Below, one piece after another: positions 17,923 to 50,900 of a DNA stretch of 64,000 nt (positions within the stretch are counted from its first letter, which is position 1; each line of letters starts with the position of its first letter). The position numbers and the translations under genes were made by a program. The notes beneath the pieces are model-generated. The model had not been told where the DNA came from. It made no database searches and was given only the letters and a program-made list of their open reading frames with translations. This stretch comes from Nigrospora sphaerica (Eukaryota; Ascomycota; Sordariomycetes; Amphisphaeriales; Apiosporaceae): assembly GCA_018287875.1 (NCBI GenBank), contig JAGVVL010000013.1, positions 3,968,001 to 4,032,000 on the forward strand, read 5' to 3'.

Positions 17923-19576
17923 TTATTCCGAATCCCCTTCCTGAAATGCACCGACATCAGTTCCGCAAGTACGTGCATTATGGCCTCCATTTCCACATCG
18001 TCTACAGCGCTGTTGCCTCGGCTGAACCCCCCCGACAACAATACAATCTTCTTCCCCGTCTTGCTGTAAGTACTCTGGAGGGCCTGTTTGTCTTATAAGA
18101 TCTTGTCCCTCTTGTAGCGTCAGTGATCCTCCTTGGTGTAAACGTGTCCTTTTTGCCTTACGACGCTTACTTAGCGTCTCATTTGCCTGTCGAAGGTCTT
18201 GTACCTCGGCGCGGAGTAATGCGACTTGGTGCATTATACCCTGCGTTCCTTTCGTAAGCTGGTCAATCGAGCGATAAATTGACGTCGGCGAGCTATTCTG
18301 ATGCTGCGAGATGCGACGCTTAATGTATTGCGTCTGCGAAGTTGCTTTAATTGGGTTGTCAGGTGTCTTGGAAAACCATGGTGTGGGCAGCTCTGTAACC
18401 GACTCCGGTGGCGTCGGCGTACGTAGCTTAATATCCAGCTTCGATATGACACTTTCTGGGCTGAGAGGGACAAGGCCAGCTCCTCGGAAGCCTCCTTGGA
18501 TATTTTGAGCAGTTAAGGCGTCTTGGAATGCTTTATAGAAGGCCGGGAAGAAGTCAGCCTTTGTGATGTGCGTGACATGCCTGCGCATCAACTCTTCGAT
18601 TTGTCGACCGTATGCTTTCTTAAGCGGACTAAAACAACCGACGTCAAGCGGCTGAAGGAGGTGGGACGAGTGTGGAGGCATGCATAAAGTAATAATCCTG
18701 TTTTCTTGGCAATAGAGCTCGAAAGCGGTCGAGTGGTGGCTCTCGTGGCCGTCGAGGACAAGAAGACGATACGCCCCGGTTGTACGCCCTTTGGTGTGTT
18801 GGTCGAAGTGTTGAATCCATTCCAGACCTCGCTCGTTTGTTGTCCAGCCGTTTTCGCTAACGGAAATCCTCTAGTCTTCAGGTAGCTGGCTATCTTCGTA
18901 CCAGGAGGAGAGGTGGAATTTGCTGGCAACGATGATGAATGGCGGGATCGCCCAGCCCTGGGAGTTGACGCCTTGAATCACTGTAATCCATTCCCGATTG
19001 CCTTGTTGGGCTATCTTCGGCCTTCCACGCCTCTCAGCGCTTGTAACGACCATGCCCGCGGAGATGATGCCGATCATGAAGCCTGTCTCGTCGAAGTTGT
19101 AGATATCCGCTTCTTGTACGCCATACTTCGCGATTATGTTCCGTATAAGCCGAAACCACGCGTTTATCGCGTCTGGATCTTCGCACTGGGCCCTCTGGTA
19201 GTCGTATCTCCGATTTAAACGCGTCCGGAGCTCGGGTTGTCGTTTTACGAAGTTTGTAGCCCAGCGCTTGCCAACTGGTGACGCGTCGCGGTCGCGTAAC
19301 AGTTGATTGGCTATATCCCCACGCGAGCGAGATTTGGAGGAAAGCGCGAGAGTCCAGGTCAAGAACGTATTGAACAATCGTTGATTCCTCCAGGTCCGTC
19401 AGTTTTCGTGATTTCGGTACAGAATCGCGTCGCGAAAGGCGACCGCGCCGGCGGCGACATAAGGTTGTATGGTCCACGCTGTAAAGCCTTGCAGCGCCGC
19501 GGGCGCTAAGTTCCGGGTCTCTTTCCATAGCCTGAATGGCTAGGATTATATCCTTTTCGTCGCTCCTATGCTGCAT
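17923..19576 (-). pseudogene. Fot1/pogo-like DDE transposase, interrupted
   Basis: Read from the ATG at 19576 down to the stop at 17923. In order: an N-terminal helix-turn-helix region (DEKDIILAIQAMERDPELS..AARLYSVDHTTLCRR), a CENP-B-like part (PVGKRWATNFVKRQPELRTR), then the DDE core with NFDETGF (first Asp), VLDGHESHHS (second Asp) and PLDVGCFSPLKKAYG (third acidic residue region), and a C-terminal coiled coil plus a CX2CX4HX4C zinc knuckle (CRRCGNGGHNARTC). Breaks: the frame shifts near 19330-19360, at the join of the HTH and CENP-B parts, and a TAG stands at 18871-18873 where relatives usually have Trp in the xWxIxVSENGWT motif (TGG to TAG). It would cut and paste the element if intact. 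Confidence 0.9.
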
Positions 19577-19628
19577 CTTTGGTTGTGATGGAATCTTGGT
19601 TTTAGTGCAAGTGTCGCGTGGAATTTGG

Positions 19629-19674
19629 TTAGTGTTGCATTCACTTGTCTGTTGCACTCGCTTATCGATTACGT
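19629..19674 (-). repeat. Right terminal inverted repeat of the Fot1-like element
   Basis: Exact inverted partner of 17817-17862, adjoining TA at 19675-19676. Confidence 0.95.
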
Positions 19675-19676
19675 TA

Positions 19677-20989
19677 TATATCAAGGCGGCGGCAGCATCA
19701 TGACTGTGTGCCATTAATCACTTTGTAGCTTTGCACTCTGCTGCTCGTGTCTCGCCCTGCCTAAGCCTTCTACCTTATACACCCAAAGTAGCGTATAAGT
19801 GACAAGTGAAATCCAGACTCCCTTCATCCAGCTTTAGAAAATGTTAGAGGCCAAACATCGCCGAAGCCCAGGATACCGTTTTCGACGCCCCAAGAAGACC
19901 TACGATGCGAATCGGAGTTCACTCGCCGCGGCGCTTAAGAATAAAAGGGTAGATTAGCTAGCAAACCCATATGCCGTTCACACCCAATATGACCTCATGC
20001 TTCAATGTCCCAAGTCCCTCGATATCAAGAGGTACCCGGCTCAAGACTTCTGTTTCCATCTCGGCCGGTTACACGTGTTCGAACGACCGGGGCTGAACTC
20101 CGCAGCTTAGACGGTTGGAGGATATTTGCAGATCGTTGTCCGGGATCTACCTCGTTTGAAATGTAGCAACGGATAGAAAGAACCCCGAAAAGTCCCGTGT
20201 GGAACTTTCCACGGGGTCTGACCAATTGAACAGCTTTTGGCGTTCTCGGTTCAGTCTCCACGCTAGGCGTTATCGCCATGCCTATACACTGTGTGCAACC
20301 TTCCCAAGTCCCAACGAATGACGTATCAGCTAGGGAAGTGAGGGACGGAAGGCTGCGTGTGTACGGCGTCCGTGAATGATCATGGGCGTTGGAAATCCGC
20401 GTGATGCTGCCCTGGAATACCTTTTCCGGTGGAAAACTTCTTCGTGAATTGAGATTTGAATTGTGGACACTTGATGGCATTTCGCAAAAAAGAAGAAAAA
20501 AGGGTTGACACCATCTTCATGTAACGATGATTTACCTGGCCCTAAGTTATGATACCAGCAGATGATTTGAAAAGTGCTACAAAGGGGCCAAAAAGCACGC
20601 CTGGTGTGAGTATATGTTTAAAAGGCCCTGTGAACTTATCAAAATATATAAACAAATATTCAAGGTAGTGTACCCACTACGGGACCAACCTATCATACCG
20701 CCACCAGTTTTAGAGACCTCATGATGTGAGCAAAAAACAAAACAAACCAATTATCTCAACAACTAGAGTAGTGTCACGGCACGCAGTTGGACAAGTCGAC
20801 AACTGATCGTAGATTGACTGAGGATAGCAACGTGAGGAAGAAAAGAAGGAAAACACACGATGGCTCTGGCAGTCTCAAAGTATCTAAGTACCCTGAGACG
20901 CACAGGCCCTCCCTTCTGCCAGTGTCCACCACCTGTTCCATCAGTGTACAGTTGCCAGCGCCGTCACAAGTAGTTACAGATAAACCGAT
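19677..20989. other. Intergenic region, no gene seen
   Basis: No supportable gene. An A-rich run (AAAAAAGAAGAAAAAAGGG) is near 20485. Confidence 0.5.
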
Positions 20990-22075: not shown

Positions 22076-22110
22076 CTATATCTGACGGTGCCACTGTGAT
22101 TCCTTCGGAT

Positions 22111-22343
22111 TGTAACGGAATGATACGAATCGAACGAGGTGACTATGTGCACGCAATTCCAATGACTGGCTGGCTGTATTGACTTCAATCTGGCCGTCCC
22201 TCCGTTTGCGGGCGCGGCCAGATTCTGCATAAGGGCGCCCCGGATTAACGTGGCGCCGCTCCGCCGTTTCGGCGACCGCCCTGGCGCTTGCTTCCCGCCG
22301 GCGCGCCGACGCACCGCCGATCCGCCCGCCCGGCCCCTTTACA
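22111..22343 (-). repeat. Element D 3' LTR (233 bp)
   Basis: Identical to 31282-31514. The adjoining purine-rich tract, read on the minus strand, is GGAATTGGGGGGGCAT (22344-22359), the polypurine tract that primes plus-strand synthesis. Confidence 0.97.
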
Positions 22344-22359
22344 ATGCCCCCCCAATTCC
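22344..22359 (-). promoter_or_regulatory. Polypurine tract of element D
   Basis: On the minus strand the 16 bases directly before the 3' LTR contain a run of seven G after GGAATT, as expected for a plus-strand primer. Confidence 0.6.
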
Positions 22360-22815
22360 TGGGCCCGGTCTCCGGCGCCCGTGGAATTCCTATCGGTGGA
22401 GCGGTCTCGGGTGCGCCGCGCCGCGTGGGTCCTTGGCCCGCCACCTTGTGGTCGCCGCCCTTCGTGGGGTTGTCCTATGCGCTCGTTATGTCTGCTGGCC
22501 CGCCCATCGGCGGCCGGTCGTTGCCTGGGCGGCGCTGCCCCGCGCTGCGTGTTTGTCTCCAGTCGCGCTCTCTGTCGCGGCGGCCTCGCCGCCTCGCCGC
22601 CTCGCTGCCTCGCTGCCCGTGTTGCTGCCTGGGGCGCCGAGGGCTCGGCTTTGTTTGTAGCTCCGTACTCCATACCAACTCCTGGGTCGGCGCCTGGTTG
22701 CAGCTTTCCTTTGTTCCCGTTCCTTGTGGCAGGCGACCTCTCCATTCCCCGTACGTCTCGTGTTTCGTGACGCTCTCTGTTCCTCATCCATTCGTTCTTC
22801 GACTGTTCGCCGACA

Positions 22816-24889
22816 ATGCTGTACCCGATCTACTCGCGCGAGGACGCGCTTAACCGCATTCGCGAGTGGGAGGTCCTCCCCGCCTGTCACTCTGTCTTTC
22901 GTTTTGGACACTCCGGCGGCCCTTTGTCCCGGAACGCCGACGACGATCTTGTCGTTTCCTTGTGCGTCCCGCATCCTGGTCGGCGCTCTATCGGGCCTCG
23001 CTCGGCTGCCTCGGGCGTTGCTAACCCTCCCCTCTAGCCCCAATGCCTTTTGTTGCAACAGTGTCACGACCGGCGCTGTTGATCCCTCTCTGAACTGTGA
23101 GGGTGCCGGCAAGTGCGGGATCTGCGCCATTGATCATCGCAAATGTGTCGCCGTTTGTGTTGCCCTTTGCCCGCGACTGTGTTGCGATGGCTGACGCGTT
23201 TAGATTCCCGAGGAATTGGTCGGTGCCGGCCGCGTCCTCACCGCTGGCATCGCCCATCTTCGCGTCCTTCAATACCGCGGTACCCACATGGGCCAGGTGG
23301 GCAGTTCCAATTGGAACTGGCGATACGTCCAAGCCTATGGGTCGCTCAAGACGGTCTACCACGAGGCGGCGATGGCTTTCCGCCTATGCTGCAATGAGGA
23401 GGACATTGCCGTCTTCCAGGAGCGCAAGGAACAGAAAAAGCGCGAAGCCGCCAACTCCCTCGCCGTTGTTGAGGCGCAGAGCCAGCGCCGGTTCGTCCAA
23501 TTACAAACGGACATCCTCGCCGTGAGTTTCCCCTCCTTTCGCCGCCGCGTCGGCGTACTGGTTCTAATCGTGTTCCGGTAGGGCGCCCATGGCCAACGGG
23601 AGCCTGTCAGTGCTGAGGAGTACCAGCGGCGATACACCCTCGCCCTTCCTGTCGGCGATCGCAGTGCCGATAGCCTGTCCCGCCTTATCGCGCACTGCGA
23701 GGAACTTTATCGCCTAACCGTCGACAACTACGACGACAAGCTGTACCGCTGGGCGCCTGGATACCATTTTCTCGCGGGCGAGGCCACATCGGATATCGAT
23801 TGGCAGCGTCGGTTCAAACGATCGCAGAAAAAGGTGCTGCGAGGGTTGATTCGTGGTTTGGTGTCAACCACGCCCGGCGGGAGAAACATGGTAAGAGCCG
23901 CGTTGCTCGAGCAGGTCCCGCCGCCCCTGGTCGCCGTACCCCGGTGAGTCCTCCCCGTCTTCGTTTTGACGCGACCGGTCCTTAGTTAACACTTCCGGTA
24001 GGGTAGCAAGGCGTCTGTCCGCCGATCCCATTCCGACGCACGAGTCGACTCCGCCGGGCCTTCGTCGCCCTTCACGCCAGTCCCCGCCGCGATGCCTGGC
24101 GATGAATCGCCTTCCGACGACGAGGACTCTGACGACGACGCCTCGAGCCTGGGTGCGGACACTGACGACGATGGCGAGTACGTCCAGTCGCCGTCCGGTC
24201 GCAGCTCTCCTTCCGGCTCCAGTGCCCGTCCTGGCCCCTCCGGCCGGGGTGGCTCGGGCGCGCCTGCGCTAGAGGATCGCGACCTGCTGTCCTCTGCTGC
24301 GTCCCTGTCGGACGCGCCGATGTCCTCTGCGCCGGCCTCTCGGGTCCAGCGCTCCACTCGTGCTGCGACACCCTGGCCCTCCAGCCCTGCCTCCGGCGTC
24401 CGCTCTGCTAGCGGTGCTCCCTCCGCTAGCGGCGCCTCCTCGATGGTGGAGTGGCGGGCCGAGCGGCGGATCCATCTCACGATGATCTCCAATACCTGTC
24501 CTCTGCCTGAGAAGCCTTGGTCCGCGGAGGAGTATCGCGACTGCGTCGCCGCGCGCTTGGAACTGTGGCATAAGTTCGACCAGGTCCCCACGACCGTCGC
24601 CGAGCCACCTCATTCGTCCGCTCGTGACCAGAAACTCATTGAGTTTCGCGATTTGGTTCCCCCCGCCCTTCCGAGGTTGGAGGCCACCATAATCCTGTCG
24701 CAATGTACGACGTTTACCATACTGCCCGACGCGGTTTCGAGACCTGGCTTCGACGTCTACACCCCTTGCCTTCGTCCGGCGGCTCGCTGCCGTCCCCTCT
24801 CGTCGCCGGCGAACGGCCAGCGTACTTACAGCGCCTCTCCGGGCTATGGCAAGGCGAGTACGACCCGTTCGCTTCGCCTAAGCGGGTAA
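22816..24889 (+). CDS. Spliced gene carried antisense inside element D; cysteine-cluster protein of unknown function
   Basis: Model with five exons: 22816-22961, 23038-23152, 23204-23521, 23582-23890, 24002-24889. Introns have donors GTGCGT, GTTTGT, GTGAGT, GTAAGA, branch-like TTGCTAAC, GGCTGACG, TTCTAATC, AGTTAACA and acceptors CTCTAG, GTTTAG, CGGTAG, CGGTAG; every junction keeps frame. The start MLYPIYSREDALNRIREWEV is followed by a cysteine cluster in exon 2 (FCCNS..NCEGAGKCGICAIDHRKC), then a helical, charged middle (FQERKEQKKREAANS; EEYQRRYTLALPVGDRS) and a disordered acidic/serine region (ESPSDDEDSDDDASS). No reverse transcriptase or other retroelement domain is present. The cysteine spacing suggests a metal-binding module, by analogy only. 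The frame probably shifts near 24700 and continues in the next entry, so the C-terminus is uncertain. Confidence 0.55.
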
Positions 24890-25871
24890 ACTTCAGCATG
24901 CCCGGCGACGGCGGTCGCGACGTTTCCTCGCTGGACAGTAGCCGCTCTGGTTCCGATGTCGTGGACGGTCTGGACTCGTGCGGCCCTTCCTCTCCCTTGA
25001 GCGCGGTCGCCGACCCAGATGCGTCCGACGGCGGCAACGCCCTGTCCGTTGGCTCCGACACCGGCGGTGACCGCTCCCCTAGCCCTGATGGCGATGTTGA
25101 CATGGTCTCGGGGGCACTGACGCGTCGGCGCAAATGCCGCCACCCGCGCAAGCTCTTGCCCCGACCGGCCCGTCCGTGGACCCACACTGGACTGCCGAGC
25201 AATGGGCGCTCGCCCGCCGACGGGCCATGAACCGCATCCTCGAGCTGTATCCTGACCCCGCTCCCCTGTCAGCGTTACCGCCTTCCGGGACGTCCTTTGG
25301 GCCCGGCACTTCAGTCTCCACTCGGCGAACCGCGAGATAGACACGGCTATGCGCTGGGATTCCCATCCCGCGCCGCCTAGTGTTCAGCACACGCGAGACA
25401 CTGAGAACCTCGACGTGGCCACCATCACGCTCTCGGCGACGGCTGACGTCCTTGGTTGTGCTCCCCGAGCTGGCCATCTCTCTCTGGCTCGGCTTGCCCA
25501 GGCCGGCGGACGATCGCATGTCCTGCGCCGCTTCCCGATCGACGCTACCCGCCCCGATCCCATTGGAGCTGGGTACACACCCCGGTACGTCTCCGAGATC
25601 GTGACTAGCCTTCCGGCGGCGGCTCCTCCCCCTGCCGTTTAAGGACTGGTCCCCGGCCGCAATGGAGGAGTACTACAACAGCGCCTTCTCGTCACTCGGC
25701 TTGCGACGGATCAACGTCCTCGGTGGCATCGCTCCGCCCGCCGTCTCGCCGTCCTCGTCGACCCGAGGTGCCAAACGTCGCCGCTCTGCCGCCGACGACG
25801 CGGCTCACGGTCCCTCGGCTGGACCCCTCCTTCGCGACGCCTTCGCCCGTCTCGCCGCTAGGTCGCCCTGA
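24703..25871 (+). CDS. Probable continuation of the antisense gene in element D, frame broken
   Basis: Successive plus-strand open stretches in changing frames: 24703-25230 (starts MYDVYHTARRGFETWLRRL, then a serine/aspartate-rich region), 25134-25340 (contains HWTAEQWALARRRAMNRILE), 25349-25642, and 25662-25871 (MEEYYNSAFSSLGLRRINVLGG with a basic RGAKRRR patch and a stop at 25869). Composition matches the end of the previous entry. They look like later exons or a coding region broken by small indels, as seen in the pol genes of the same element. No function assigned. Confidence 0.35.
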
Positions 25872-26040
25872 CGCGTCACCTAGTTTGCCGTCCCCTCATC
25901 CGCTGCGTCCTGCGCTTTGGCGGATCCTCGTCGCCCGTACGCCGCCTAGCGGACCTCCTGCGTCCTACTCTGCATGCCGCGTGCGACCTTCCACAGCAAT
26001 TGCATGGCTTAGCTCCGTGTACTTCTAGGCCCTGGCCTCG

Positions 26041-26643
26041 TTAATTGATCTGCTGCGCTTCGCGCCCCGCCACTCCGTGATTTCCTGTGCTCGGAGGGCG
26101 ATCGTCGTCCCATTTACGGTGGGACCGCCGCTTACGATAGCGTGCCACGATCTTCGGCGCGTTCTCCAGGTTCGCCTCTGGCTCCCAGGTGTTATATTCC
26201 ACCGGCCAGCCCATCCATTTCACGAGGTACTCCGCCCCTCGGGCGGTCGTCCTGTGTCGGAGGATATCCTCGACCTCCCACTCCTCTTGGTCCTCCACCA
26301 GTCCTGGGAGTGCCTCATGGTCCCCGGAGGCCTTGCCAGTCCATGGCTCCAACGATGACACTGGGAACACGTCGTGTATCCGTTCGTACTGCGAGGGCAG
26401 GGCGACCCTGTAGGCCACCTTACCAATCCTCTCCGTGACCTTTACCCGAATGTACGTCGGGGCGAGCTTCGCACCGCACTTAAATCGGAACCGCTTCGTC
26501 GAGAGGCCTACCCACTGACCTGGTTGGAACTCTTGGTCCTGGTGCCTTCGGTCGTAGCCCTTTTGTTGGGCTTTCACTGCGACGTCCCAGTGTTCTCTCA
26601 TACGCGCGCGGACCTCTCGGCTCTTCTGTAGCCGTTCTAACAC
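26041..26643 (-). CDS. Element D integrase C-terminus with chromodomain
   Basis: About 200 residues. The first part has the GPY/F-like region (KVTERIGKVAYRVALP) of Gypsy integrases, then SSLEPWTG and a chromodomain (EWEVEDILRHRT..EYLVKWMGWPVEYNTWEPE) with the aromatic residues expected to read methylated histone H3. In chromoviruses this module steers integration to heterochromatin. A basic tail (RYRKRRSHRK) follows. It lies in a frame different from the integrase core upstream, so a shift separates them. Confidence 0.9.
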   Translation of the reverse strand: MLERLQKSREVRARMREHWDVAVKAQQKGYDRRHQDQEFQPGQWVGLSTKRFRFKCGAKLAPTYIRVKVTERIGKVAYRVALPSQYERIHDVFPVSSLEPWTGKASGDHEALPGLVEDQEEWEVEDILRHRTTARGAEYLVKWMGWPVEYNTWEPEANLENAPKIVARYRKRRSHRKWDDDRPPSTGNHGVAGREAQQIN

Positions 26644-26881
26644 GCCCGCGCTCCGAAAGCGTTCTGCTTGGGGGCGAACTCCGTCATCCTCGGGTGAAAT
26701 CCATACAGCGCCTCAAACGGTGACACCCCGATGGAGTCGTGGCGGCGGTTATTATAGGCGAACTCGGCTTCGTGTAGCCCGGATGCCCATGTCGCCTCGT
26801 CGCAACACGTGCGTAACCACTTCTCTAGTGTTTGGTGCGTTCTCTCTGTCTGCCCGTCCGTTTGGGGATGGTACGCCGTGC

Positions 26882-27622
26882 TCAGCCGGCGTTTCGTTGC
26901 CCTTGCCTCGCACCACTCTTGCCAGAACCGGCTCGTGAGTAGGAGTCCCTATCGCTCACAATCCCGAGGGGCGTCCCGTACCGGCATTCCACTTCCTTAT
27001 ACAGGATATGGGCTAACTCTGCCGCAGTTAGGGTTTTCCTCGTGGGTAGGAACAGTGCCATCTTCGTGAATCGGTCCACGATGACTAACACGGCGTCGCA
27101 GGCGTCGCCCTCGGGTCGGCAGCTGATCGGCAGCCCAGTGATGAAGTCCATGCTAATCTCTTGCCAGGGTCCCTCGGGTAGCGGTAGGGATTGGAGTAGG
27201 CCGTACGGTTTGTGCCTTGGTCTCCTTGCTCCCTGGCACTCCTGGCATGACTCTGCGTACTGTCGCACCTCCTCGGCGATCGCGGGCCAGTGGAACTTCC
27301 TCGTGAGCAGCTCTAAGGTCTTATTCGCGCCTAGGTGTCCCGCCCTGGGGTCATCGTGGTGTTGGTGGAGTAGTTGGGCCCTTAACGCTCCCTCATTAGG
27401 GATGACTAGCCTTCCTTTAAATCGGAGGGCTCCTTCCTCGTCTAGGTGGTACCCCGCAGCTTGGCCTTGCCGCGCCTTCTCCATTCGTTCCGCGATGTCC
27501 CGGTCCTGGGGTTGTAGCCCCCGAATGAGCTGGTAGAACGCCTCAGTGGGCTTATCCGCCCAAGTGGTCTCGTTTCTTGCCACGCTTCGAGCCACTGCTC
27601 TCGGGAGCACCTGTCCCCCCAC
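26882..27622 (-). CDS. Element D integrase, zinc-binding and catalytic core (frame broken)
   Basis: The H2C2 zinc domain is visible (HHDDPRAGHLGANKTLE..CQECQ) followed by the catalytic core: SMDFITGLP carries the first Asp and VSDRDS the second. Just after VSDRDS the frame is lost; one base fewer in a C-run at about 26943-26945 moves the expected continuation (SRFWQEWCEARAT) to another frame. The catalytic Glu segment (STAYHPQTDGQTERTHQ) is present at about 26820-26885 in that frame. The integrase inserts the reverse-transcribed DNA into the genome; it is normally one polyprotein with RT and chromodomain. Confidence 0.9.
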   Translation of the reverse strand: MGGQVLPRAVARSVARNETTWADKPTEAFYQLIRGLQPQDRDIAERMEKARQGQAAGYHLDEEGALRFKGRLVIPNEGALRAQLLHQHHDDPRAGHLGANKTLELLTRKFHWPAIAEEVRQYAESCQECQGARRPRHKPYGLLQSLPLPEGPWQEISMDFITGLPISCRPEGDACDAVLVIVDRFTKMALFLPTRKTLTAAELAHILYKEVECRYGTPLGIVSDRDSYSRAGSGKSGARQGQRNAG

Positions 27623-29450
27623 CGGCCTCGTCGATCACTGCTCGGCGCCTCGTCGTGGGTGGCCCTCCTGGCCTTGTGCCCGGGTTACCGGGGCAAGGAC
27701 CGCGTCCCCCCTGGCCACCCGCCGACCTTTTGTCTGTGTGCGTCACCATCGCCCGCACCGCCCCCACGTACGTCGCGGTCCCGACGTTTCTCGTGGTGCT
27801 GATCCTTGCCACCTGGTGTCGGACCTCGGCCGGCAGCTGGTCGACGAGTGCCAGTTTCATTGCTAGTGACGGAATCACGTCGTGGTAGCTGATCTCCCCA
27901 GCCATGTAGTCTGGTCGCCGCGATAGCGGATCCGCCGGGTTCGTGGCCCCCTTCCGATATTCCATATCGAAGTCAAAATGCGAGAGCCTGTACACCCATC
28001 TTGCGAGGCGGCCTCGTAAGTCTCTCGCCGGTGCTTCCACGACCCCTTTCAGTGCCTGGTGGTCGGTCCAGACCGTGAACTTGGCGCTCAGCCCCTCAAG
28101 GTAGTGTCTCCAATGCTCGAGTGATTCGACAATCGCTAGCAGTTCCTTTTGGCCCGTGGCCCAGTTCAGCTCGGGCGCCGTGAGTTTCCGCGACCAGTAG
28201 GCGACTGGCCTCCACTCGCCACCTCCTTGTTTCTGTGATAGGATGCCTGAGACTGCCCTATCACTCGCGTCTGTCTCGACCCTGCTAGTTTTCTCCGGGT
28301 CCCAGTGTCGGAGCACCGTCGCCGAAGTGAACGCGTGCTTTAGCTCTTCGAACGCCTTCTGTGCGTCCAGGGGCCACTGGAACGGGCCCTTCTTCCGGCC
28401 GGCCTCCATGCCTTTCAGTAGCGCCGTAATCGGTGCCGTGATATGCGAGTACTTCGCAATGAACTTCCTATAGAAGTTGGTGAACCCTAGGAACACTTGG
28501 ATGTCCCGGTACGACTCAGGAGGCTGCCATTCCTGCACGGCTATCACTCGTTTCGGGTCCATCTTTAAGCCTACTCGGCCGACCACGAATCCTAGGAACT
28601 CGATTTCCTCTTTAAAGAATTCGCACTTCGAGATCTTCGCAAATAGCTCGTGCTCCTTCAGCCGTTCGCACACCATTCGGAGATGCGTCGCGTGTTCCTT
28701 CGCGTCCTGCGAGTAGATGACGATGTCGTCGAGGTAAACCACGCAAATGGTGTCAATGAGCCCTGCTAATGCCTTCTGCATATAGGCCTGAAACGTGGCG
28801 GGCGCGTTCGTGAGCCCCATGGCCATCACGTTATACTCGAAGTGGCCGTACTTCGTTCGGAACGCGGTCTTCCAGCGGTCGCCCTCTGCGATTGCGAGGC
28901 GAAAATAGGCGTCTCGTAAATCCATCTTCGAGAACACCTTCGCCGACCCCAGCTGATCCATCAGCTCGCTAATTAGCGGAAGCGGATATCGGTTCTTTAC
29001 CGTGACCTTATTTAGGCCCCGGTAATCGACGCATAGTCGTAGACTGCCGTCCTTTTTTGGCACGAATAGCACGGGTGCCCCCGCCGGGCTCGTGGAGTGC
29101 CTAATGCGACCGGTTTCCAACGCCTTCGCGAGGTACTCCTCGAGCTCCTTTCGTTGCGGTTCTGAGAGGGGATAGATAGGTCCGTGTGGAGGCTGTGCGC
29201 CGGGGATGAGGTCGATCGTGTGCGGTGTCTCTCCTAAAATAGGCGGCTCCGCGGCTGCGGACTCACTAAACACGACCTCGTACTCCTTTAAACAGGCTGG
29301 TAGCGCGACGGTCCCTATGGGCGGTTCGTCGTCAAGCCCCGGTATCGCCGACGCGTCACCTAACTCTAGCCTCGCTAGCTGGGCGATTAGCACCGGTTCG
29401 CCTTCGGTCGCTTCGCGGGCGAACTCCTCTGGCCCCACGAACTGCATCAC
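27552..29450 (-). CDS. Element D reverse transcriptase and RNase H
   Basis: 632-residue frame. RT motifs in order: GRIRHSTSPAGAPVLFVPKKDGSLRLCVDYR, KMDLRDAYF, KTAFRTKYGHFEYNVMAMGLTNAPATFQ, and the catalytic VVYLDDIVIYS. These are followed by the thumb/connection (FLGFTNFYRKFI) and the RNase H domain (VETDASDRAVSGILSQ, ELLAIVESLEHWRHYLEG, FTVWTDHQAL). The frame stays open past RNase H into low-complexity sequence and overlaps the integrase reading frame, so a shift is present near 27600. The core motifs are intact. Confidence 0.95.
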   Translation of the reverse strand: MMQFVGPEEFAREATEGEPVLIAQLARLELGDASAIPGLDDEPPIGTVALPACLKEYEVVFSESAAAEPPILGETPHTIDLIPGAQPPHGPIYPLSEPQRKELEEYLAKALETGRIRHSTSPAGAPVLFVPKKDGSLRLCVDYRGLNKVTVKNRYPLPLISELMDQLGSAKVFSKMDLRDAYFRLAIAEGDRWKTAFRTKYGHFEYNVMAMGLTNAPATFQAYMQKALAGLIDTICVVYLDDIVIYSQDAKEHATHLRMVCERLKEHELFAKISKCEFFKEEIEFLGFVVGRVGLKMDPKRVIAVQEWQPPESYRDIQVFLGFTNFYRKFIAKYSHITAPITALLKGMEAGRKKGPFQWPLDAQKAFEELKHAFTSATVLRHWDPEKTSRVETDASDRAVSGILSQKQGGGEWRPVAYWSRKLTAPELNWATGQKELLAIVESLEHWRHYLEGLSAKFTVWTDHQALKGVVEAPARDLRGRLARWVYRLSHFDFDMEYRKGATNPADPLSRRPDYMAGEISYHDVIPSLAMKLALVDQLPAEVRHQVARISTTRNVGTATYVGAVRAMVTHTDKRSAGGQGGRGPCPGNPGTRPGGPPTTRRRAVIDEAGGGTGAPESSGSKRGKKRDHLGG

Positions 29451-29482
29451 TCTAAACGTGAACGTGTCTGGCTTTCGTGTGT

Positions 29483-30301
29483 CTAAGGTAATTCCTCCCG
29501 CCCCATGCCCGGGCGGGACAGTAGCACCTGGGCCGCGTGCTTATCTCGGCGCACGACGAAGAACACCTGCGTGAACCTCCGTACCTGCCCTTGCACGTCT
29601 TGCATCTCTATCGCCGCTTCCACGGCGCCATAGCACCGTAGCGGCTGCCCGTCGACCCCTAAAAGTCGCGGCAGAGTTATGGGGACTTTCGTAACCCAAC
29701 CCCTCGTGACGGCTCGATCCGCCGTCCGCTTTGCGATCACGTTGACCTCGGCCCCCGAATCCAGGTCGATCCGAATCGGCTTCTTCGCTCGGCCGAGTTC
29801 GTCGCATAACTGGCCCGTGGTGCGCATGGCCGCGCCTAGCACCCCTGTCGCGCGGTGTGTGTCCGCTGAGTCGTCTTGCGCTCCGTCCGGCTCAGCTACA
29901 CATTTCCCGCCTCGCTCGCGCTCCAGTCGGAGTCGGATCGGTACTGGGGCGTCTCTTGCTTCACCTCTGCCGCCTGGATCCGCGCGCCGGCCGCTCGTGT
30001 AGCGCCGGTGTGCGCCGCCGGGGATTGCCTGCCCGGCGGCTTGGCCGTACAATCCCGCTGGATATGGCCCCCTCGCCGCATTTATAGCAACGGACGTACT
30101 TCGGGCGGGGTCTCCTCTCGGTGGCGCCTGGGCCGAACCCCCTCGACGAACCTTCGACGCTGGTTGCACCACCGCCTGGTTCACATACCCCTGTCGGGTC
30201 CCGCTAAACTCGTGCTCGGCCCGGGGTCGCTTCCTTCCTCCCGGAGTCCCGTCGCGTGTCCCTTCGCGATCCCTTCGCTGATAAGGGAGAGGATCTGCCA
30301 T
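29483..30301 (-). CDS. Element D zinc-knuckle/protease region
   Basis: The aspartic protease motif is IRIDLDSGAEVNVIA (DSG form), with a second conserved stretch (LPRLLGVDGQPLRCYGAVE). The CCHC zinc knuckle is split across two other frames at 30040-30090: CYKCGE in one, GHIQRDC in the next, separated by a run of five G where six would keep the frame. The protease would release Gag and Pol products. No clean -1 or +1 slippery site could be identified. Confidence 0.75.
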   Translation of the reverse strand: MADPLPYQRRDREGTRDGTPGGRKRPRAEHEFSGTRQGYVNQAVVQPASKVRRGGSAQAPPRGDPARSTSVAINAARGPYPAGLYGQAAGQAIPGGAHRRYTSGRRADPGGRGEARDAPVPIRLRLERERGGKCVAEPDGAQDDSADTHRATGVLGAAMRTTGQLCDELGRAKKPIRIDLDSGAEVNVIAKRTADRAVTRGWVTKVPITLPRLLGVDGQPLRCYGAVEAAIEMQDVQGQVRRFTQVFFVVRRDKHAAQVLLSRPGMGREELP

Positions 30302-31245
30302 CGACGCTCCGCCTCGTGGGCGACCGCTTGGGCGTCGGTGATAGCAACGTTATCCCGAATGATGTCCATCCGTAGCCACGGTCGCAGCTTGAGTAGGAAC
30401 TCGTGTGCGATGAGGGGCTGGCCTGCGATGCTCTCTCGAACCCGTCGCTGCCACGCGGACCACTCGTTATAGAACTGTGTCGGCGATTGGTCGGCCGTTT
30501 GCCGGATCCGTTGTAGCGCCGCCATTGACCTCTGCATATTCTGAGCCGGGTCGATGTGTTCCCGTCGAATGAACTTTAAGAAGTCTGCCCACTTGGCCTG
30601 CTCGCTGTATTTCCCTTGCGGGTATAGATCTTCGGCGTGGGTGCGCCACTCGCTTTGCAAGGCGTAGTCCACGTTGGTGAGGGCCCATTCGATATAGCGA
30701 GCATCCGTCTGGTCGGGTCGGCTCTCGTTTTGTTGTTCCACCGCCACGATCCAGCTTCGGATCTCCACGTGGGTCGAGGCCTCCTCTAGCTTCTTGCATG
30801 CGTAAGTCGGTGGCTTCTCGTACGTGCGCGGTTCTCCGCTCGTGCTCCGACTGGGCGGCGTTAGTCCTTGACCCCGTTGGCGGTCGGCTCGGTCCGCCGT
30901 CATCATCTCGATCATCTTCTGCTGTGTCTTCAGCAGCGCGCGGAGAAGGTCGTTCTCCCGCGTGGCGACCCGGAACAGATCGGACTCCGAGGGGGTTGAC
31001 ATGTCGGGTCCCGGCGTTGGGCTTGGATCCGTTTCGCCGGATGGTCGCGGTTCGTCCGCGCCCGTGGGCCCTTCGTCCATTGGGAACGGGCGCCCCTCCA
31101 CCGTGCCCGCTCCGGTAGTCAGGGCGCCGGGGATCGCCGCGTTGCTCGGCGCGGCTGGCTCGTTGGCTCCTAACCCTAAGTTGGGGTGAGAGCTTGCTTG
31201 ACCGGGCGTCGAGCTGTCGGGGCGCGATCGGGTAGCGGGTGCCAT
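30181..31245 (-). CDS. Element D Gag
   Basis: 354 residues from the ATG at 31245, just after the 5' LTR and leader. The first 120 residues are proline/serine-rich; a leucine-rich heptad segment (ENDLLRALLKTQQKMIEMM) may form a coiled coil; residues about 140-300 are the Retrotrans_gag region (IEWALTNVDYALQSEW, WADFLKFIRREHIDP, PTQFYNEWSAWQRRV, FLLKLRPWLRMDI). The frame stops before the zinc knuckle, which is found downstream in other frames. Gag forms the cytoplasmic virus-like particle. Confidence 0.9.
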   Translation of the reverse strand: MAPATRSRPDSSTPGQASSHPNLGLGANEPAAPSNAAIPGALTTGAGTVEGRPFPMDEGPTGADEPRPSGETDPSPTPGPDMSTPSESDLFRVATRENDLLRALLKTQQKMIEMMTADRADRQRGQGLTPPSRSTSGEPRTYEKPPTYACKKLEEASTHVEIRSWIVAVEQQNESRPDQTDARYIEWALTNVDYALQSEWRTHAEDLYPQGKYSEQAKWADFLKFIRREHIDPAQNMQRSMAALQRIRQTADQSPTQFYNEWSAWQRRVRESIAGQPLIAHEFLLKLRPWLRMDIIRDNVAITDAQAVAHEAERRWQILSLISEGIAKGHATGLREEGSDPGPSTSLAGPDRGM

Positions 31246-31281
31246 AGCCGGCTCGTTCTCGTGGTGTAGAGATTGAAGAAT

Positions 31282-31514
31282 TGTAACGGAATGATACGAA
31301 TCGAACGAGGTGACTATGTGCACGCAATTCCAATGACTGGCTGGCTGTATTGACTTCAATCTGGCCGTCCCTCCGTTTGCGGGCGCGGCCAGATTCTGCA
31401 TAAGGGCGCCCCGGATTAACGTGGCGCCGCTCCGCCGTTTCGGCGACCGCCCTGGCGCTTGCTTCCCGCCGGCGCGCCGACGCACCGCCGATCCGCCCGC
31501 CCGGCCCCTTTACA
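31282..31514 (-). repeat. Element D 5' LTR (233 bp)
   Basis: Identical to 22111-22343 and followed (minus strand) by the gag leader. Target duplication CGGAT abuts its outer end at 31515. Confidence 0.97.
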
Positions 31515-31699
31515 CGGATCTTTACATCTAGCCAGCCTTTAAGGCTTCGAAGCGCTAGTTTACAAAGTCCTCTTTATTTAACTATATTAAAAACCACTGC
31601 TATTAAACTGCTTTACCCTTAAAGATCATTAACAGTGACAGCACTTTACTATTAGTAAAGATAGCCTTTAAAAAGGTCGACCACTTACCTTTAGCTATA
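31515..31699. repeat. AT-rich RIP-degraded relic between element D and solo LTR B
   Basis: TA-rich sequence depleted of CpA/TpG, same character as 20990-21900. No gene. Confidence 0.5.
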
Positions 31700-43947: not shown

Positions 43948-45195
43948 TTTATTATTATTATTATTATTGTTCTTACACCTAGCGACCTATCTAGGCCATG
44001 AGGACCCCCTGCGCATCTTAGCCTAGGAAAACCGTTCCGGGCTAACGTCCGGCCGGGTGAAAAACCTAGGTTCCGCTGCGTCGTACCGCTTCTATCTGCT
44101 CTTTGACCTGCCATACCGAGATCGGGCTCAGCGCGCCCGCTTCCTAGCTGATGAGTTGATTCGCTAGCTAGAACATGTCTAGCCTGCCCGAGCGGAGTAG
44201 CCATCTCGCGATAATTCCTGCTTCTCCTGGGGTATCGAGTATCCTGTCCGTGTCTATCGGTCCTCCTAGAGCTTGGACGAGATGCTCTTGTCTTTCTCTT
44301 TCCCGTGGGCAGAAAACGAGGATATGCCAGACCGTCTCCTTACCCTGACTGCAGTCACACTATAGGTTGTCGAAGCCTAGAACCCTGCGCTTAAAAAGGA
44401 AGTCTCGCAGCTTAATTTTGCTGGTCCTTGCTTAGATAAGGATCGAGCTCTCTACCTTATAAAGTCCTTTATAGAGCTTAAGGATATGCTTATTTAATAG
44501 TATCTTAGTTGCCGCCAGGGCTCGTGCTATTCGGTTTTTCTACGTTTGTTACTATCTTTAAAGCTAGTCTCTCTTCTTAGCCTTATATACTAAGTCTTTA
44601 GCTAACCATTTATTTAGCCACCTCTTATATCGGGAGTGTTAGGGCTTTTTAGTCTATGCTAACGAGTCGGTTTTATTAGAATCTATCTAGCTACGTTATC
44701 GTATCTTACTTAGATAAGCGTGGCGATATATAGCTATTAAAGCCTCTCTTTCGAAGCCGCTACTCTTTTATTAAGCTATATATTTAAGGGCGATATATAG
44801 GCTTCTGTTTCTAGTATCGTGACTGCTGTTGCCTTAAAGGCCCTCGTGACTTTATAAAGGCACTCGGTCTGAATGTCACCTAGTGTCTTAGCCTTACTTT
44901 TCGGAATATAATAGTGCTATTCTAAAGCTCCGTAGCTTATAGCAGACTATATAACGGCTATGTAAACTTAGCGGGCTTGCTAAAGGAACGCGCCCTATAT
45001 CGAGCTAGCTATCCGGTCTAGGGTATAGACCTCCATCGCTATCTTTTTCGATATCGACTAAATATGGACATCCCAGTGGAGACATCTATCCACTTAGATT
45101 CCAAGGACACGGCAGGAGTCTTTTAGTTCGATTTTGTGACCTTCTAAGGCTATCTCTATATCCGGACCTTTCTGCTTTCGAGAGAAGTGAACTAG
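43948..45195 (-). mobile_element. Tad-like LINE, minus-strand 3' portion, interrupted by element C
   Basis: The (ATT)n tail at 43948-43968 and the next several hundred bases are the reverse complement of the 3' end of the plus-strand LINE (55900-56215), e.g. the GTAGCCATCTCGCGATAATTCCTGC stretch. Further in it is degraded to TA-rich sequence by RIP. It stops at 45195 at the target duplication of element C and resumes at 51206-51356, where it matches the FADDTN part of ORF2. The copy is thus 5'-truncated in the RT domain and split in two. Confidence 0.92.
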
Positions 45196-45411
45196 TGTCA
45201 CGGTTCAAGGAACGAAGAATCTGTTAATGACCCAAGGGTTCTATTAAGATGCGAAAACTACAGGTGAAGAGGAAAAGAAGAGGAGGAACAGGCTCCTCTC
45301 AGTCACTGTTTGGCAGGAATATATCCAGCCAGCGGCGGTACGTACCGCCAGGCAGCGGTAAGTCGTCCATGCGTTGCCATGCCCTTGTACCTATATACCC
45401 ATACCGTAACA
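45196..45411 (-). repeat. Element C 3' LTR (216 bp)
   Basis: Pairs with 50985-51200; six differences, all transitions at CpA or TpG. Confidence 0.96.
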
Positions 45412-45452
45412 TTACCCCCCCTCAAGAAATAAAACTTGTCCGCAAGTTTCGG

Positions 45453-48400
45453 TCACTTCTTCCGGGCAATTCTCTTTCTCGTTCGGTTCGTCGAAGCCGG
45501 AGAGTTGTCGTCGGCGTGAGGTGGGTCGATCTTGTCGTCAGCTGCGGCGTTAAGCCATGAAGCCAGTCGCTTCGGCGGTCCTGCGTTGTCTGGATACTCC
45601 TCGTGGTATTCCTGGAGAAGTGTGGCGCTGTTCTTAAATGACTCCGCGTTGTACCACGTCGCGTCCGGGTCCCAACCTTTCCAGCGCACCTGGTATTGAA
45701 GTTTCCTATAGTGCAGTCGAGAGGATAGCACTCGGTCTACCTCCCATTCTTCGTCCAATAAAGGATCCACGATTTCGCCCTCCGGATTCTCGGCCTGTTG
45801 TCCCGGGAGAGGGTCGTCTTGGAATCGCCGAAGGCGATCAGTGTGAAACACGTTCGTGCCCTTCCAGTCTGGCGGCGTGTCAAGTTCGTAGGAGTGTCCT
45901 CTCATCCCCTTAATAGTGTAATATTGCTGCGTTAAGGGGAACGTCAGGGCGTCGCCAGGTTAGTCCGTCGTCCATGTCCGTTTAAGGATAACCACCTTAT
46001 CCCCGACCTTAAAGTCTGGCTTGCGTCGCGACTTGTTAGCCTGGTTGTATATACGGCGTTGGGATAAGGTAGCCTGTTATCGTGCCGCTTCTATATATTA
46101 GTAGAGTGTCTTCATAATCTTCTGCGTGTCTTGTCGTCCGAGACACTCTGTTGTCGGAAGCTTGCCAATGTCTTAGGTCCAGTCAGCTTTGGAATATAGC
46201 AGCGGCATAAGGAAACCACGCTCCACTTCATAAGGAGACAGTCCTGTCGAGTCCTAAGGCAGGTTAGCTTAGACAGCGTCCAAAGCTGGAATCACTAACA
46301 ACCAGTTATCTTGGAAGTGTGATAAGTAAGGCAGAATCCATTACTAGATAGCCTGGTTTATACGCTCCACTTGCCCTTGTAACTGGGAGTAGCCGGAGGA
46401 TCCCAGTTTCCAGGTGATGCCCAGCAGCTTAGAGACTTCATCGGTGAAGTGAGAGACGAATTGGGGTCCACGGTTGCTCCCAATCTGCTGTGGTAGTCTA
46501 AAGACGCGATATAGACTATAGTAGTATATCTTAGTAACGTCTTTAACTGTCACTAATCGGGTGCAGGGAACGCACCAACTCCTCTTACTTAATAAGCAAA
46601 CTATAATAAGGAGGTTATTAAACCCCTTTCGATCTTTAGGCATGGTCTTAAAGTCCATCTAAATCGACTGCTATAAGCGAAGCGGTATCGGAAGCAGATA
46701 GAGAAATCCTAGTGTCTTATCCCGGGGGACTTTAAATAATCAGCACACTCGATAGTTGGCCACGAAACCGTCGATGTCTTTAGATAATCCTAGCTACCAG
46801 TACTGGCTCTGCACTAGCTTATAGAGCTTATTATATCCCGGGTACGCGGATGTCAAGCGCGAATAGAAGTCTTCTAAGATATGCGTCCTCAGATTGTCTT
46901 ATTCGGGGACCACCAGTTTGCTGTTCCTTAGGAGGGTTCCGTTAGAGAGGGTCCAGGTAATGCCGTCGGTCGGCTTTAACGTAGTCTTTTCCCGAAACGG
47001 CTGGAGAAGGGGGTCGGTGCAGTTAAGTTCGACGGCACAATATACCAGCATTGACCCAGAGAGTGGTGGCGGTGGCAGGTCGTCCTCTAAGAGGGCCACC
47101 TCACTTAAGGGTTCCACTATAAAAAGCGCTGGTATATATCTGTGTTCGCCCTCCTAGAAGATGGCTAGGTGTCGCATCGCCTCGGTTTTCTCTTTCTGTG
47201 TTTTCAGATCTTCCGTTTTCCGTGATAAAGCGTCGGCTACGGTATTCTGCGTTCCTAAGCAGTACTTCAGTAGGCAGTGGTATTTAGCGAGGAGCTCCGC
47301 CTAGTTCGCTTATCGCAAGTTAAGATAACGTTTCTGGCTAAAGTATTCCAGCGCGCTATAGTCCGTCACAATCGTAAACTGTGGACGCTGAAGTCCCACG
47401 AGCTTAACGCGCTAATACTTAAGGGCTTGGACCACAGCTAACAGTTCTTTATTATGGATGCTGTAATTGAGCTCCGAACCTTGGAGGGTCTCTAAGTAAA
47501 AGGCGACGGGGTGCCAGTTATTAGAAGCGTCATCCTTCTTTTACGATAGGACTCTGGTAATCACTCCGTCGGAAGCATCTGTCTCCACTCGTGTATTGTT
47601 CTTATAGCCGAAATATACGAGGACTGGGGCCTCCAGCAGTCGTTGTTTCAAGGTATCGAAAGCTTCCTGGCACTCCTCTATCCACTGGAACGTCGGTAAA
47701 CCTTGCTTCGTTAGGTTGGTGAGCAGTCGAGCGATCCGCCTATACTCGCGAACGAACTTGCGATAGAAATTGCAGAAGCCGAGAAATAATTGCACTCCTT
47801 TAATAGACGTCGGAGGTACCCAGTCGCAGATGACGGACGTCTTAGCAGGATCTACGGCCACTCCTTCTATAGAGATGATGAAGCTTAAGAACTTCGTTTC
47901 CCGAATATGAAATTCGCATTTATCGGTGTCGGCTTATAGTCCGGCCTCTCGGAGGCGCTGCAGGACCCTCCTCACATGGTCCTCGTGTTCTTCAACTGAA
48001 TCCGAAAAAATGACGATGTTATCTAAATATACCAAGCAGAAATCATCCAGATAGTCTATTAAGGTGTTATTTATAAAGCGCTGAAAGGTCGCGGGTCCGT
48101 TTGTTAATCCAAATGGGAGCACGTTGTACTGAAAGGTGCTATAATAGGTACGGAACGCTGTCAACTCTTCTAATCCTGGCGCCATTCGGATCCGGTGGAA
48201 TGCTTATCGGATATCCAACTTTATAAAGACCTTTACCTTGGAAATCCGGGCTATAGTCTCCTCGATTAAGGGAAGTAGGTGTCGGTCCTTATAAGTGATA
48301 GAGTTGAGCTTTCTGAAGTCCATGTAGAGGCGTAGTCCTCCATTCCCTTTAAATGCGAAGAGGATTAATGCCGCCTAAGGCGCTTCACTTAGCTCGATAA

Positions 48401-49121
48401 ATCCCTTTACTAGGTTCTCGGTTATGTACTTCCAGTATGTCTCCATTTCCTTAAGCGATATCTTCCGCAGGCCCGAGTATCCTAGGAGCTCGTCTAGCTT
48501 GGCATTATTATTCAAGATGATCTTATAGTCGCAGGTGCGATACAGTAGTAACTTGTCGGACTCGAACTTACTGAACATATTTAAGTACTCGTGGTATTAC
48601 TCTAGTACCACTTATAATGCTTTTTCGCGAAAAGTGTCCGAGTCTGAGGGTAATATGTCCCCTCGTGACGTTTGCTTCTCGAGGATAATCTTATCTATCG
48701 CGTGGAGGCTAGTGACATGCCAATCTTAAGGGTTTCGGCGGTAGGACATTTCCATCGCCGGTGCGGAGATAAAAGCGACGTCGATGCGTTCTTTAAAACT
48801 TCCTGCCGAGCTCCGGCGTCGGATAAAGGGTCCTTGAGAGTCGCGTTCCATCGGGGACGACGGTGCCCTTGGTGGCGGTGTCAGAGACGGTGGGGGCACG
48901 TCGGTTAGTTTAGCTAACGCGTATTTCATCTTCGCGATGCCTTCATCGTTTCGTTGTCCCTGCGCACGAGTGGCTATAGATCGTGTTAGGATTTTCTCAT
49001 ATCGAATTATCGGTGGTGACTTCTCGCGATCGGTGTCGGTCGTATATAAACTGCGGATGACTAAAGGATCCGGACGTCGTGATCTTCGGCTTGCCAGGCG
49101 TCGCTGGTCTTCTATAGCCAT
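45453..49121 (-). pseudogene. Element C pol (RT, RNase H, integrase, chromodomain) with in-frame stops
   Basis: All recognisable parts share one frame, so only nonsense and missense changes have accumulated. RT: FRTYYSTFQYNVLPFGLTNGPATFQR, then CLVYLDNIVIFS (the catalytic YLDD now reads YLDN, a GAT-to-AAT change) at 47934-48185; connection FLGFCNFYRKFV; RNase H start RVETDASDGVITRVLS (47541-47861); integrase FVSHFTDEVSKLLGI..SGYSQLQGQVERINQ (46344-46658); chromodomain DEEWEVDRVLSSRLHYRKLQYQVRWKGWDPDATWYNAES (about 45560-45770). The tail ends in a basic KRIARKK. No activity is expected. Confidence 0.93.
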
Positions 49122-50164
49122 CTTTTGCTCGTGGCTTTGGGCGTCTATATTAAAGGTAGGGTTCTATAGAAGCTATCCGGCTTAGTCTATAGCGATATGA
49201 TGTTCTATACGTTAGGGGGTCCATTCCTCGGGGAAGAGAAGACGACGGCGACGAACATTTAGCGTTATATTATATGTTTCCAACTATTTGCGACCGACTA
49301 TCATGTCGTGGCGCATATTAAGGACTAGAAAATGGGTTCGGGTGGTGAGACGGCTCTGGATTTAGAAGTGTCCCAGCAGGGCAATGTCCACTAGTTACGA
49401 TAGGGTACCGTCAAATCCGCCGATAGGTTAAGGGTGAAAGTCACGAACAGTAAGGAGGTGTAGGTATCGGAGGAGCCTTCAGGCGAAGGCCACGCTTATA
49501 AACAGGTATCCGCTTACTCCGGTGTCGACGAGGGCCTAGGCGGAGAGAGACGATCTATTATAAGCTATAGTATAGGGGAAGGTAAATAGTCTTCCCTTTA
49601 AGTGCTTGCTTAAAAAATTAGAGGATCGCTTATCCCGCGAGTTCTTAATATCGACGACTTCCCTTAAATCGGAGTCCACTTGTCTAAGGGTATCTAGTTT
49701 TCCGAATCCGTGATATCTTCGACTTAGTCGGAGTCAGGAATCTCGATCGCAAGACTATCGGCGTTCGAATAGGGACGGGGAGTTCCTATCCACTGGCTAA
49801 CTAAAGCGTTAATACGGTTCGAATAGTTAACATTGACTCGCTTCTCTAGGCAGTTGTTAACGTAGTGGCTAGGCTTTTTGCAGTTAAGATAAAGTCGGTT
49901 CTTTAAAAGGCGACGGAGCTTGTTAAGACCGTGTTAACAGGCCAGGGCTAAGGTAGTGTAACGCTTCTCCGAAGGTTTAGTAAGATCCGATTGGTCGACA
50001 GCGGGGATAGGGGTTCGGCGATTACCGCCACGGTTTCCGTGGTTCGCGCGATATCCAGGGTCGTCACTCTTGGCAGACTGGAGGACCAGTGCAATTTAGG
50101 CGGCCTCGGTTGCAAACGCGTCGAATCCAATGCTGCTCTTAATATAGGAGGAGGCCAGTGCCGT

Positions 50165-50900
50165 TTACAACTCTATCGTAAGCTTTCGGTTGAAAAGGCG
50201 CTTCCAATCCGTTTTAACTTGGCCAGTTTCGTTAGTAAGTCGAAGGAACTTATTCTTAAAGACCTGGAAATCCATTCCCGCGGCTATATGGAGGTTCTCA
50301 AATTCTAAAGAGGCAGCCTCCATTTGGTTGGGGTCATGGTACTGTTGCCAGAGATGCGCTATCAAGGCCTCGTACGACTGGATCGGAGTAGGGTGTGTCT
50401 GTTGGAGGTAAAGCTGGAGATCATCGCTGGCCTCTCCACCGAGGCGGCCTTCGATATAGGCCTGCTTAGAGAGGTCTGTGGGGAAACAGGAAGCGTTTAC
50501 TAGGATCTTGTTCTTGACCTGACGGAACCAAGTCTCGAACTTGACGATGTCCTTAGACTTCTGATTGTAGAAAACTGGGGGGTTAGGGAGGCGCTCAACC
50601 TCCGGTTGGGAGCCCTCAATATCGGGAAGTACAGGCGGTGGTGTACTTTAGGTACTTCCTGCCGTCTGCCGGATTAAGGCAGCCATCTGCTGTTGGAGAT
50701 CCTTCATCTGTCTCTTTAGCTTAAGGCGTCTGTAGCGCTCTTAGACGAATCTGGACTCGGTGTTGTCAACGTCGCCGGTGTCATTCGTATCGGCGGAACC
50801 CTCACGGGTATTGTCGGGGTCATCCTTGTGAGTTTCTGTGATCCGGTAGAGGGATCCACCTTGTTTGGCCGGCATCTTAGCGGTGTATATGGGTCGCGCT
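50165..50900 (-). pseudogene. Element C gag remnant
   Basis: Between the 5' LTR and pol, in a different frame. A clean stretch (50165-50365) has gag-like character (WQQYHDPNQMEAASLEFENL and FKNKFLRLTNETGQVKTDWKRLFNRKL). Upstream and downstream parts are interrupted by stops. Confidence 0.7.

Follow-up and report, generated by a model that had tools for sequence, protein, structure and literature searches.

A putative four-intron gene antisense to pol in a young Ty3/Gypsy chromovirus of Nigrospora sphaerica

Results

The element and its antisense gene

The stretch of DNA examined in this study, hereafter the window, comprises 64,000 nucleotides of Nigrospora sphaerica contig JAGVVL010000013.1 (G000:C5:3968001-4032000, from a genome of 51.6 Mb in 33 contigs) and contains a long terminal repeat (LTR) retrotransposon, referred to as element D, which lies in minus-strand orientation at 22106-31519 with its target duplications included. 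Element D is a Ty3/Gypsy chromovirus by its domain content: it has LTRs, a 5-bp target duplication and a polypurine tract, and the Pfam matches and the order of the open reading frames (ORFs) place reverse transcriptase and RNase H upstream of the integrase, with a chromodomain at the C-terminus. The two LTRs, each of 233 bp with TG...CA ends, are mutually identical, and the element is young and recently active. The original prediction had placed a plus-strand gene in a 3.7-kb segment between the chromodomain stop and the polypurine tract, and this segment was confirmed, with 3,697 bp between the stop at 26041 and the LTR. In the one chromovirus used for comparison (45182-51200, same window), the corresponding distance from the end of the chromodomain ORF to the LTR is ~40-45 bp, without a 3.7-kb stretch. 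Judged from its sequence, the segment looks like the seat of a real spliced protein-coding gene with the following parts.

22816-22961, plus strand: exon 1, with the ATG at 22816; recognisable in the relatives on contigs C12 (L022) and C13
22962-23037, plus strand: intron 1 (GTGCGT ... GCTAAC ... CTCTAG)
23038-23152, plus strand: exon 2, which holds the cysteine cluster
23153-23203, plus strand: intron 2 (GTTTGT ... GCTGAC ... TTTAG); acceptor position common to the C18 pseudogene
23204-23521, plus strand: exon 3, in which the conserved core domain begins
23522-23581, plus strand: intron 3 (GTGAGT ... TTCTAAT ... GGTAG); same position in C18
23582-23943, plus strand: exon 4, remainder of the core domain; its A-run 23828-23832 differs by one base among copies
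23944-24001, or to the alternative acceptor 24006, plus strand: intron 4 (GTGAGT ... TTAAC ... GGTAG)
24002 (or 24007)-24889, plus strand: exon 5, acidic Ser-rich part; stop of the window copy at 24889, frame to 25230 in copies L002 and L006
24703-25230, plus strand: apparent extension of exon 5, read in a different frame in the window copy; the C-run 24659-24664 varies between copies, and the part is matched in the C13 relative
25265-25871, plus strand: possible extra C-terminal coding stretch, two ORFs in broken frames, unproven

Each intron, 51-76 nt in length, starts with a GT donor, contains a branch-like motif and ends in a YAG acceptor. The four-intron model of the original prediction stands, with two of its boundaries changed: the intron-2 donor was set at 23153, preferred to 23147 on motif and frame, and for intron 4 acceptor 24006 was joined by 24001 after the comparison of copies, the choice being dependent on a homopolymer. 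In the window copy as assembled, the frame of exon 5 is kept only with acceptor 24006, which yields 607 residues, while in copies with an extra A in the run 23828-23832 (8 of the 19 near-identical copies, and the copy at 93% identity) it is kept with acceptor 24001. Two such copies, L002 and L006, encode 723 residues as they lie with this acceptor. The gene extends beyond the predicted exon 4: its end is at 24889 in the window copy, and L002 and L006 reach 25230. The ORFs from 24703 onward look like continuations of exon 5 in other frames.

The cysteine cluster and the acidic stretch expected in the product are both present in the 723-residue form, and the claimed lack of a retroelement domain agrees with the Pfam search of this form, in which no family was matched at E<=10. 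DUF3716, considered as a lead because small cysteine clusters of this kind occur in fungal proteins, was likewise without a match at that threshold. As a control for chance, the longest ORF with up to four motif-bearing introns was determined; it had 607 codons on the plus strand and 214 on the opposite one. When the plus strand was put through 200 dinucleotide shuffles, the best spliced ORF had at most 472 codons (median 179) and never reached 607. The ATG lies 472 nt from the LTR. Moreover, no inverted repeats of at least 16 nt were found in the segment, and its only direct repeat was a weak one of 26 nt. The other parts of element D are as follows.

22106-22110: left target-site duplication, 5 bp (CGGAT), repeated at 31515-31519
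22111-22343, minus strand: 3' LTR in pol orientation, identical to 31282-31514
22347-22359, minus strand: polypurine tract, G-rich on the minus strand and adjoining the LTR, by direct reading
26041-26643, minus strand: ORF of the integrase C-terminal part and chromodomain (Chromo E 6.9e-19, SH3_Tf2-1 E 1.7e-12)
26882-27622, minus strand: integrase ORF (Integrase_H2C2 E 8e-18; rve at E 0.0072 did not pass its cut-off)
27552-29450, minus strand: reverse transcriptase and RNase H ORF (RVT_1 E 1.8e-37, RT_RNaseH E 2e-33)
29483-30301, minus strand: protease-type ORF (DSGA motif by eye; no Pfam match)
30181-31485, minus strand: gag-like ORF, assigned by position (no Pfam match; listed start inside the 5' LTR)
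31282-31514, minus strand: 5' LTR, 233 bp
31515-31519: right target-site duplication, 5 bp (CGGAT)

Copies and mobility

The genome contains 19 near-identical complete copies of the 3.7-kb segment, besides one at 93% identity (L020) and three fragments. The pol segment gave 42 matches, counts for pol being lower bounds (the best 40 of 56 candidates were scored); 20 of these are strong, and every one adjoins a copy of the insert, with 2 bases between them in the 93% copy, while the remaining 22 are short pieces with 66-78% identity. Full-length copies without the segment, which had been named as a refuting observation, were not found among the 20 close copies. Matching 5-bp target duplications, with sequences differing from site to site, flank the 233-bp LTRs of 13 of the 20 copies and are absent from L006, L008, L010, L013, L014, L016 and L018. 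In 18 of the 19 young copies both LTRs equal those of the window copy, and in L018 one LTR is at 99.6%. Since all 20 close copies carry the segment and 13 of 20 have matching duplications, the antisense gene travels with the element, as had been proposed.

The duplications of L006 (C5:269805-273502) read GCTCG/GTATC and those of L008 (C6:37754-41447) read GTATC/GCTCG, a reciprocal swap of the kind expected when two copies have recombined. L010 and L018 (C5:119803-132662) stand in tandem with one common LTR, and their outer flanks start in the same way as the flanks of L008, which lies on the small contig C6.

In an alignment of the 19 young copies, 8 columns had substitutions and 22 columns away from the edges had gaps, and 20 of these 22 gap columns fall in runs of 3-6 equal bases, a pattern that suggests, and does not prove, sequencing error or slippage rather than decay. 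The variable homopolymers (e.g. window 24659-24664, 25262 and 25627) are a useful gauge of assembly error or reverse-transcriptase slippage.

Selection on the spliced frame

The fragment L021 on contig C7 matches the segment with 85% identity over 23421-24019, and RIP (repeat-induced point mutation) is not dominant among its differences. Compared with copy L002, its substitutions at codon positions 1, 2 and 3 number 12, 9 and 50 (of 160, 161 and 161 sites), a bias with a chi-square p of 2.9e-10, and a count of 50 was reached in none of 20,000 random placements. Over 160 codons, two stop-bearing codons excluded, the synonymous rate (dS) was 0.635 and the nonsynonymous rate (dN) 0.055, which gives a dN/dS of 0.087, and four of the other five frames gave ratios of 1.6-3.3. 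A first dN/dS of 0.147 (175 codons) had contained ~15 misaligned end codons and was replaced by that of the BLAST-match region. Moreover, L021 differs by -1 nt in the length of intron 3 and by +2 nt in that of intron 4, while its exons stay in phase; splicing is therefore needed to explain the constraint on the frame. The pattern of substitutions demonstrates purifying selection on the comparable part of the predicted spliced frame, and a lack of frame conservation, which the original prediction had named as refuting, was not observed over this part. The L021 fragment itself is dead now, with two stops. L020 and L022 were dropped from the selection tests because their differences are mostly of the RIP type (204 of 229 substitutions in L020 are C-to-T or G-to-A; 203 of 224 in L022 are RIP-type), and the exon substitutions of L022, 32/16/37 by codon position, are little informative.

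Relatives of the gene

A heavily RIP-damaged stretch on contig C13 (GC ~0.28) matches the gene collinearly, with exon 1 at one end and the part beyond 24703 at the other. The site matching residue 1 lies ~460 nt from an LTR that is 66% like that of element D, and a weak match resembling reverse transcriptase (E 5e-4) lies on the opposite strand. The differences from element D comprise 1,057 RIP-type changes, a further 112 transitions and 212 transversions, a spectrum that marks the C13 stretch as an older subfamily and more than a damaged copy. These data establish that the layout of an LTR, ~0.47 kb, an ATG and the exons recurs in an older degraded relative. On contig C12 (L022), exons 1 and 2 and the beginning of exon 3 lie beside an LTR-like stretch; we infer an LTR before these exons because residues 1-68 of the gag-like ORF, which are encoded in the LTR, have a match there. 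In addition, a weak match was obtained at C7:2425356. Another weak match, C10:2787678, was rejected since the core motif is absent on reading, despite a local match of the protein P0001 (see below) at E 6e-7 when that 6-kb piece alone was searched.

Contig C18 carries a free-standing pseudogene with three stops in exon 4 and no RIP-damaged look, the core domain of which is 34% identical to that of element D and which agrees with the element gene in the positions of the intron-2 acceptor and of intron 3. In the 30 kb around it, no LTR of the D type was found, and the only trace of D proteins was a remnant of the integrase-end and chromodomain ORF ~6.5 kb away. Just upstream of C18 exon 3, two 48-bp inverted repeats (L034 5430-5477 and 7310-7357) that are 96% identical lie ~1.9 kb apart; perhaps they belong to a DNA transposon that splits the C18 gene. 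Tandem arrays with a unit of ~126 bp flank the pseudogene on both sides (L035 2149-3650 and L036 2840-3828, from self-matches).

A search of a 5.8-billion-protein set with profile A1, built from these relatives, in which the best 7,993 candidates were scored, retrieved two proteins from short contigs, P0001 (E 5e-44) and P0002 (E 1.7e-24), E-values partly driven by the C18 row that A1 includes. P0001 alone matched the element D copies at E 2.7e-13 with 38% identity and the C18 copy with 66% identity. P0001 and P0002 have the core domain in common with the element gene and the C18 copy; there are 23 invariant residues, six of which form the motif AYGSLK. No Pfam family was found in P0001 or P0002 at E<=0.01. 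Single-product searches of the same protein set returned nothing (E<=1 among the best 7,997 candidates; E<=10 for residues 1-315 among the best 4,699), a search of viral contigs gave no relatives, and with later stretches of the gene (24703-25227 and 25265-25639) as queries, only the copies of element D itself were matched at E<0.5.

Other features of the window

A DDE transposase gene split over several frames lies at 17923-19714 on the minus strand (Pfam DDE_1, E 3.2e-8 on one piece), and we take it to be pogo/Fot1-like. A second Gypsy element at 56218-62783 has LTR-like repeats that are only 77% identical, and a gag-like frame (zinc-knuckle-like by eye, no Pfam match) where its 3' region is expected, a layout that suggests nesting.

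Discussion

In the present study, sequence comparison indicated that element D probably carries a spliced accessory gene which is convergent with pol, is a fixed part of the element and is mobile with it. As in the antisense class aORF-3R, the gene is situated between pol and the 3' LTR and is read against gag-pol, is present in most family copies (20 of 20 strong pol matches) and has a protein-like sequence conservation (dN/dS 0.087).

Several observations weigh against this interpretation. None of the 20 assembled copies gives an uninterrupted frame past 723 residues or position 25230, and with acceptor 24001 the frame stops earlier in 18 of the 20. Twelve of these 18 get no further than codon 403, and eight of the twelve end exactly there because the extra A is absent. 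A break at 25109 is common to all 19 young copies relative to L020. The selection test comes from one 0.6-kb fragment, L021, itself with two stops, and the minus-strand frame with common third positions also looks constrained (ratio 0.145, with five stops). Furthermore, the relatives that clearly span the cysteine cluster are the RIP-damaged L020 and L022, and the selection result concerns the exon parts of 23421-24019, downstream of that cluster. Finally, a second C13 fragment (2692278-2692442, plus strand) has a related LTR and, directly behind, a reverse transcriptase match on the same strand (E 1.7e-13); it is compatible with the antisense layout only if elements are nested there, and the match that does fit this layout is much weaker.

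The genomic RNA of element D has the sense of pol, and on it the introns of the antisense gene are reverse-complemented and without the splice signals of the gene. By this geometry, the earlier argument that they are not introns in the genomic RNA holds, and from the geometry and general knowledge they therefore pass reverse transcription intact. A promoter of the gene's own, probably located in or just inside the 3' LTR or in the 0.47 kb before the ATG, would fire towards pol, and a separate spliced mRNA would yield the protein. The protein, with its cysteine cluster, conserved core in exons 3-4 and acidic low-complexity part, may act in trans, either in the nucleus or on silencing, and thereby promote or regulate the expression of element D. 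Such a self-regulatory accessory role is a serious candidate that we place slightly below even, and it was proposed by analogy with two systems. One of them is HBZ of human T-cell leukaemia virus type 1 (HTLV-1), a spliced antisense retroviral gene that is expressed from the 3' LTR and has a regulatory role. The other is GENE23 of the maize element Grande, the product of which is nuclear according to the available part of PMC7264820.

As to the origin of the gene, a chromovirus lineage may have taken in an intron-bearing cellular gene in antisense orientation, kept its introns through many rounds of reverse transcription and selected it for a regulatory role, with the family still free-standing in other organisms; we regard this history as rather doubtful. 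If it were true, the introns would record the orientation of copying. The main rival to an accessory gene of the element is an intron-bearing host gene captured antisense by template switching or by insertion at the DNA level, with its host function kept. It is kept alive by the branch of C18 and P0001: the C18 relative stands free with no D-type LTR nearby, is closer to P0001 from another source than to element D, and has intron positions in common with the gene. However, the C18 gene is itself a pseudogene, an intact free-standing copy was not found in this genome, and the integrase and chromodomain remnant near the pseudogene means that the latter could be the relic of an old element. The C13 relative indicates that the gene is old in elements and so not a recent passenger, and long-term selection on an element-borne gene argues for its use by the element; on balance, we consider mere host cargo unlikely.

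Other explanations appear weaker than an accessory gene. The convergent transcript is complementary to the element RNA, and what matters could be the antisense transcript itself, as double-stranded RNA with the pol RNA that feeds or dampens RNA silencing, an idea raised for antisense ORFs in the available part of PMC7264820. This is improbable as the explanation of the gene, for the third-position bias and the dN/dS of 0.087 point to selection on the protein, which double-stranded RNA does not need, although both could coexist. GC-rich DNA yields long chance ORFs, many of them on both strands, and the frames of the window copy are broken, so that the segment might hold no gene at all, being either chance open frames or a nested insertion of another transposon. 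The dN/dS of 0.087 contradicts this, as do the relatives of the core domain and the shuffle control, and the repeat content reported above and the lack of a Pfam transposon domain speak against a nested insertion; we consider it highly improbable. The same low credence is given to an env-like or structural particle gene that is merely placed antisense. Genes of the env type sit between pol and the 3' LTR, but the orientation is wrong and no Pfam match was obtained in what was a weak test.

The interest of an accessory gene of this form lies in its splicing, which makes the antisense mRNA distinguishable from read-through, while the introns show the copied strand and the selection signal indicates that the protein is of consequence. 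Should the free-standing relatives be host genes, element D would also exemplify a retroelement that has retained the introns of a gene it captured. The presence of antisense genes in LTR retrotransposons is established, their role is not, and a multi-intron case in a very young, multi-copy fungal element would be a clean test bed.

Among known systems, HTLV-1 HBZ resembles the gene in being spliced and antisense at the 3' end, a comparison of how the two work only; host and element class differ, and no relationship in sequence is claimed. An antisense promoter in the 3' LTR of HTLV is mentioned in the available part of PMC7264820. As far as that source was available, it also treats ORFs that lie antisense between pol and the 3' LTR as an established class without a known function, gives Boty as a fungal case, and calls for the study of antisense and spliced transcripts; the word 'intron' does not occur in its text. 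In the plant members (gene23 of maize Grande, rice RIRE2, Silene Retand and PvRetro13), the ORFs are likewise antisense, lie between pol and the 3' LTR and are present in most copies, their function is unknown and some of the products are nuclear (PMC7264820, in part). Element D differs in its fungal host, and the likeness is one of description and not of sequence. The Boty-like elements of Botrytis cinerea and Sclerotinia sclerotiorum are fungal LTR elements with a chromodomain pol and an extra antisense gene, brtn, between pol and the 3' LTR. In the available parts of the sources, brtn is found together with a chromodomain pol (PMC4227169) and is described as an additional ORF (PMC8365987); the title of its primary paper (Zhao et al. 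2011, Virology 417:248) was taken from the reference lists of PMC8365987, PMC7264820 and PMC4227169. The suggestion in the original prediction that a spliced antisense gene in a fungal chromovirus might be undescribed does not hold in that form, since an antisense gene as such, brtn of Boty, was already known (PMC7264820, PMC4227169 and PMC8365987, each in part). Among the open-licence matches listed, by titles and the starts of abstracts, no multi-intron antisense gene in a fungal LTR element was found, which is a weak absence. The gene of element D, compared with brtn by description only, has four introns and shows selection on part of the spliced frame, and its multi-intron form and its protein family look new.

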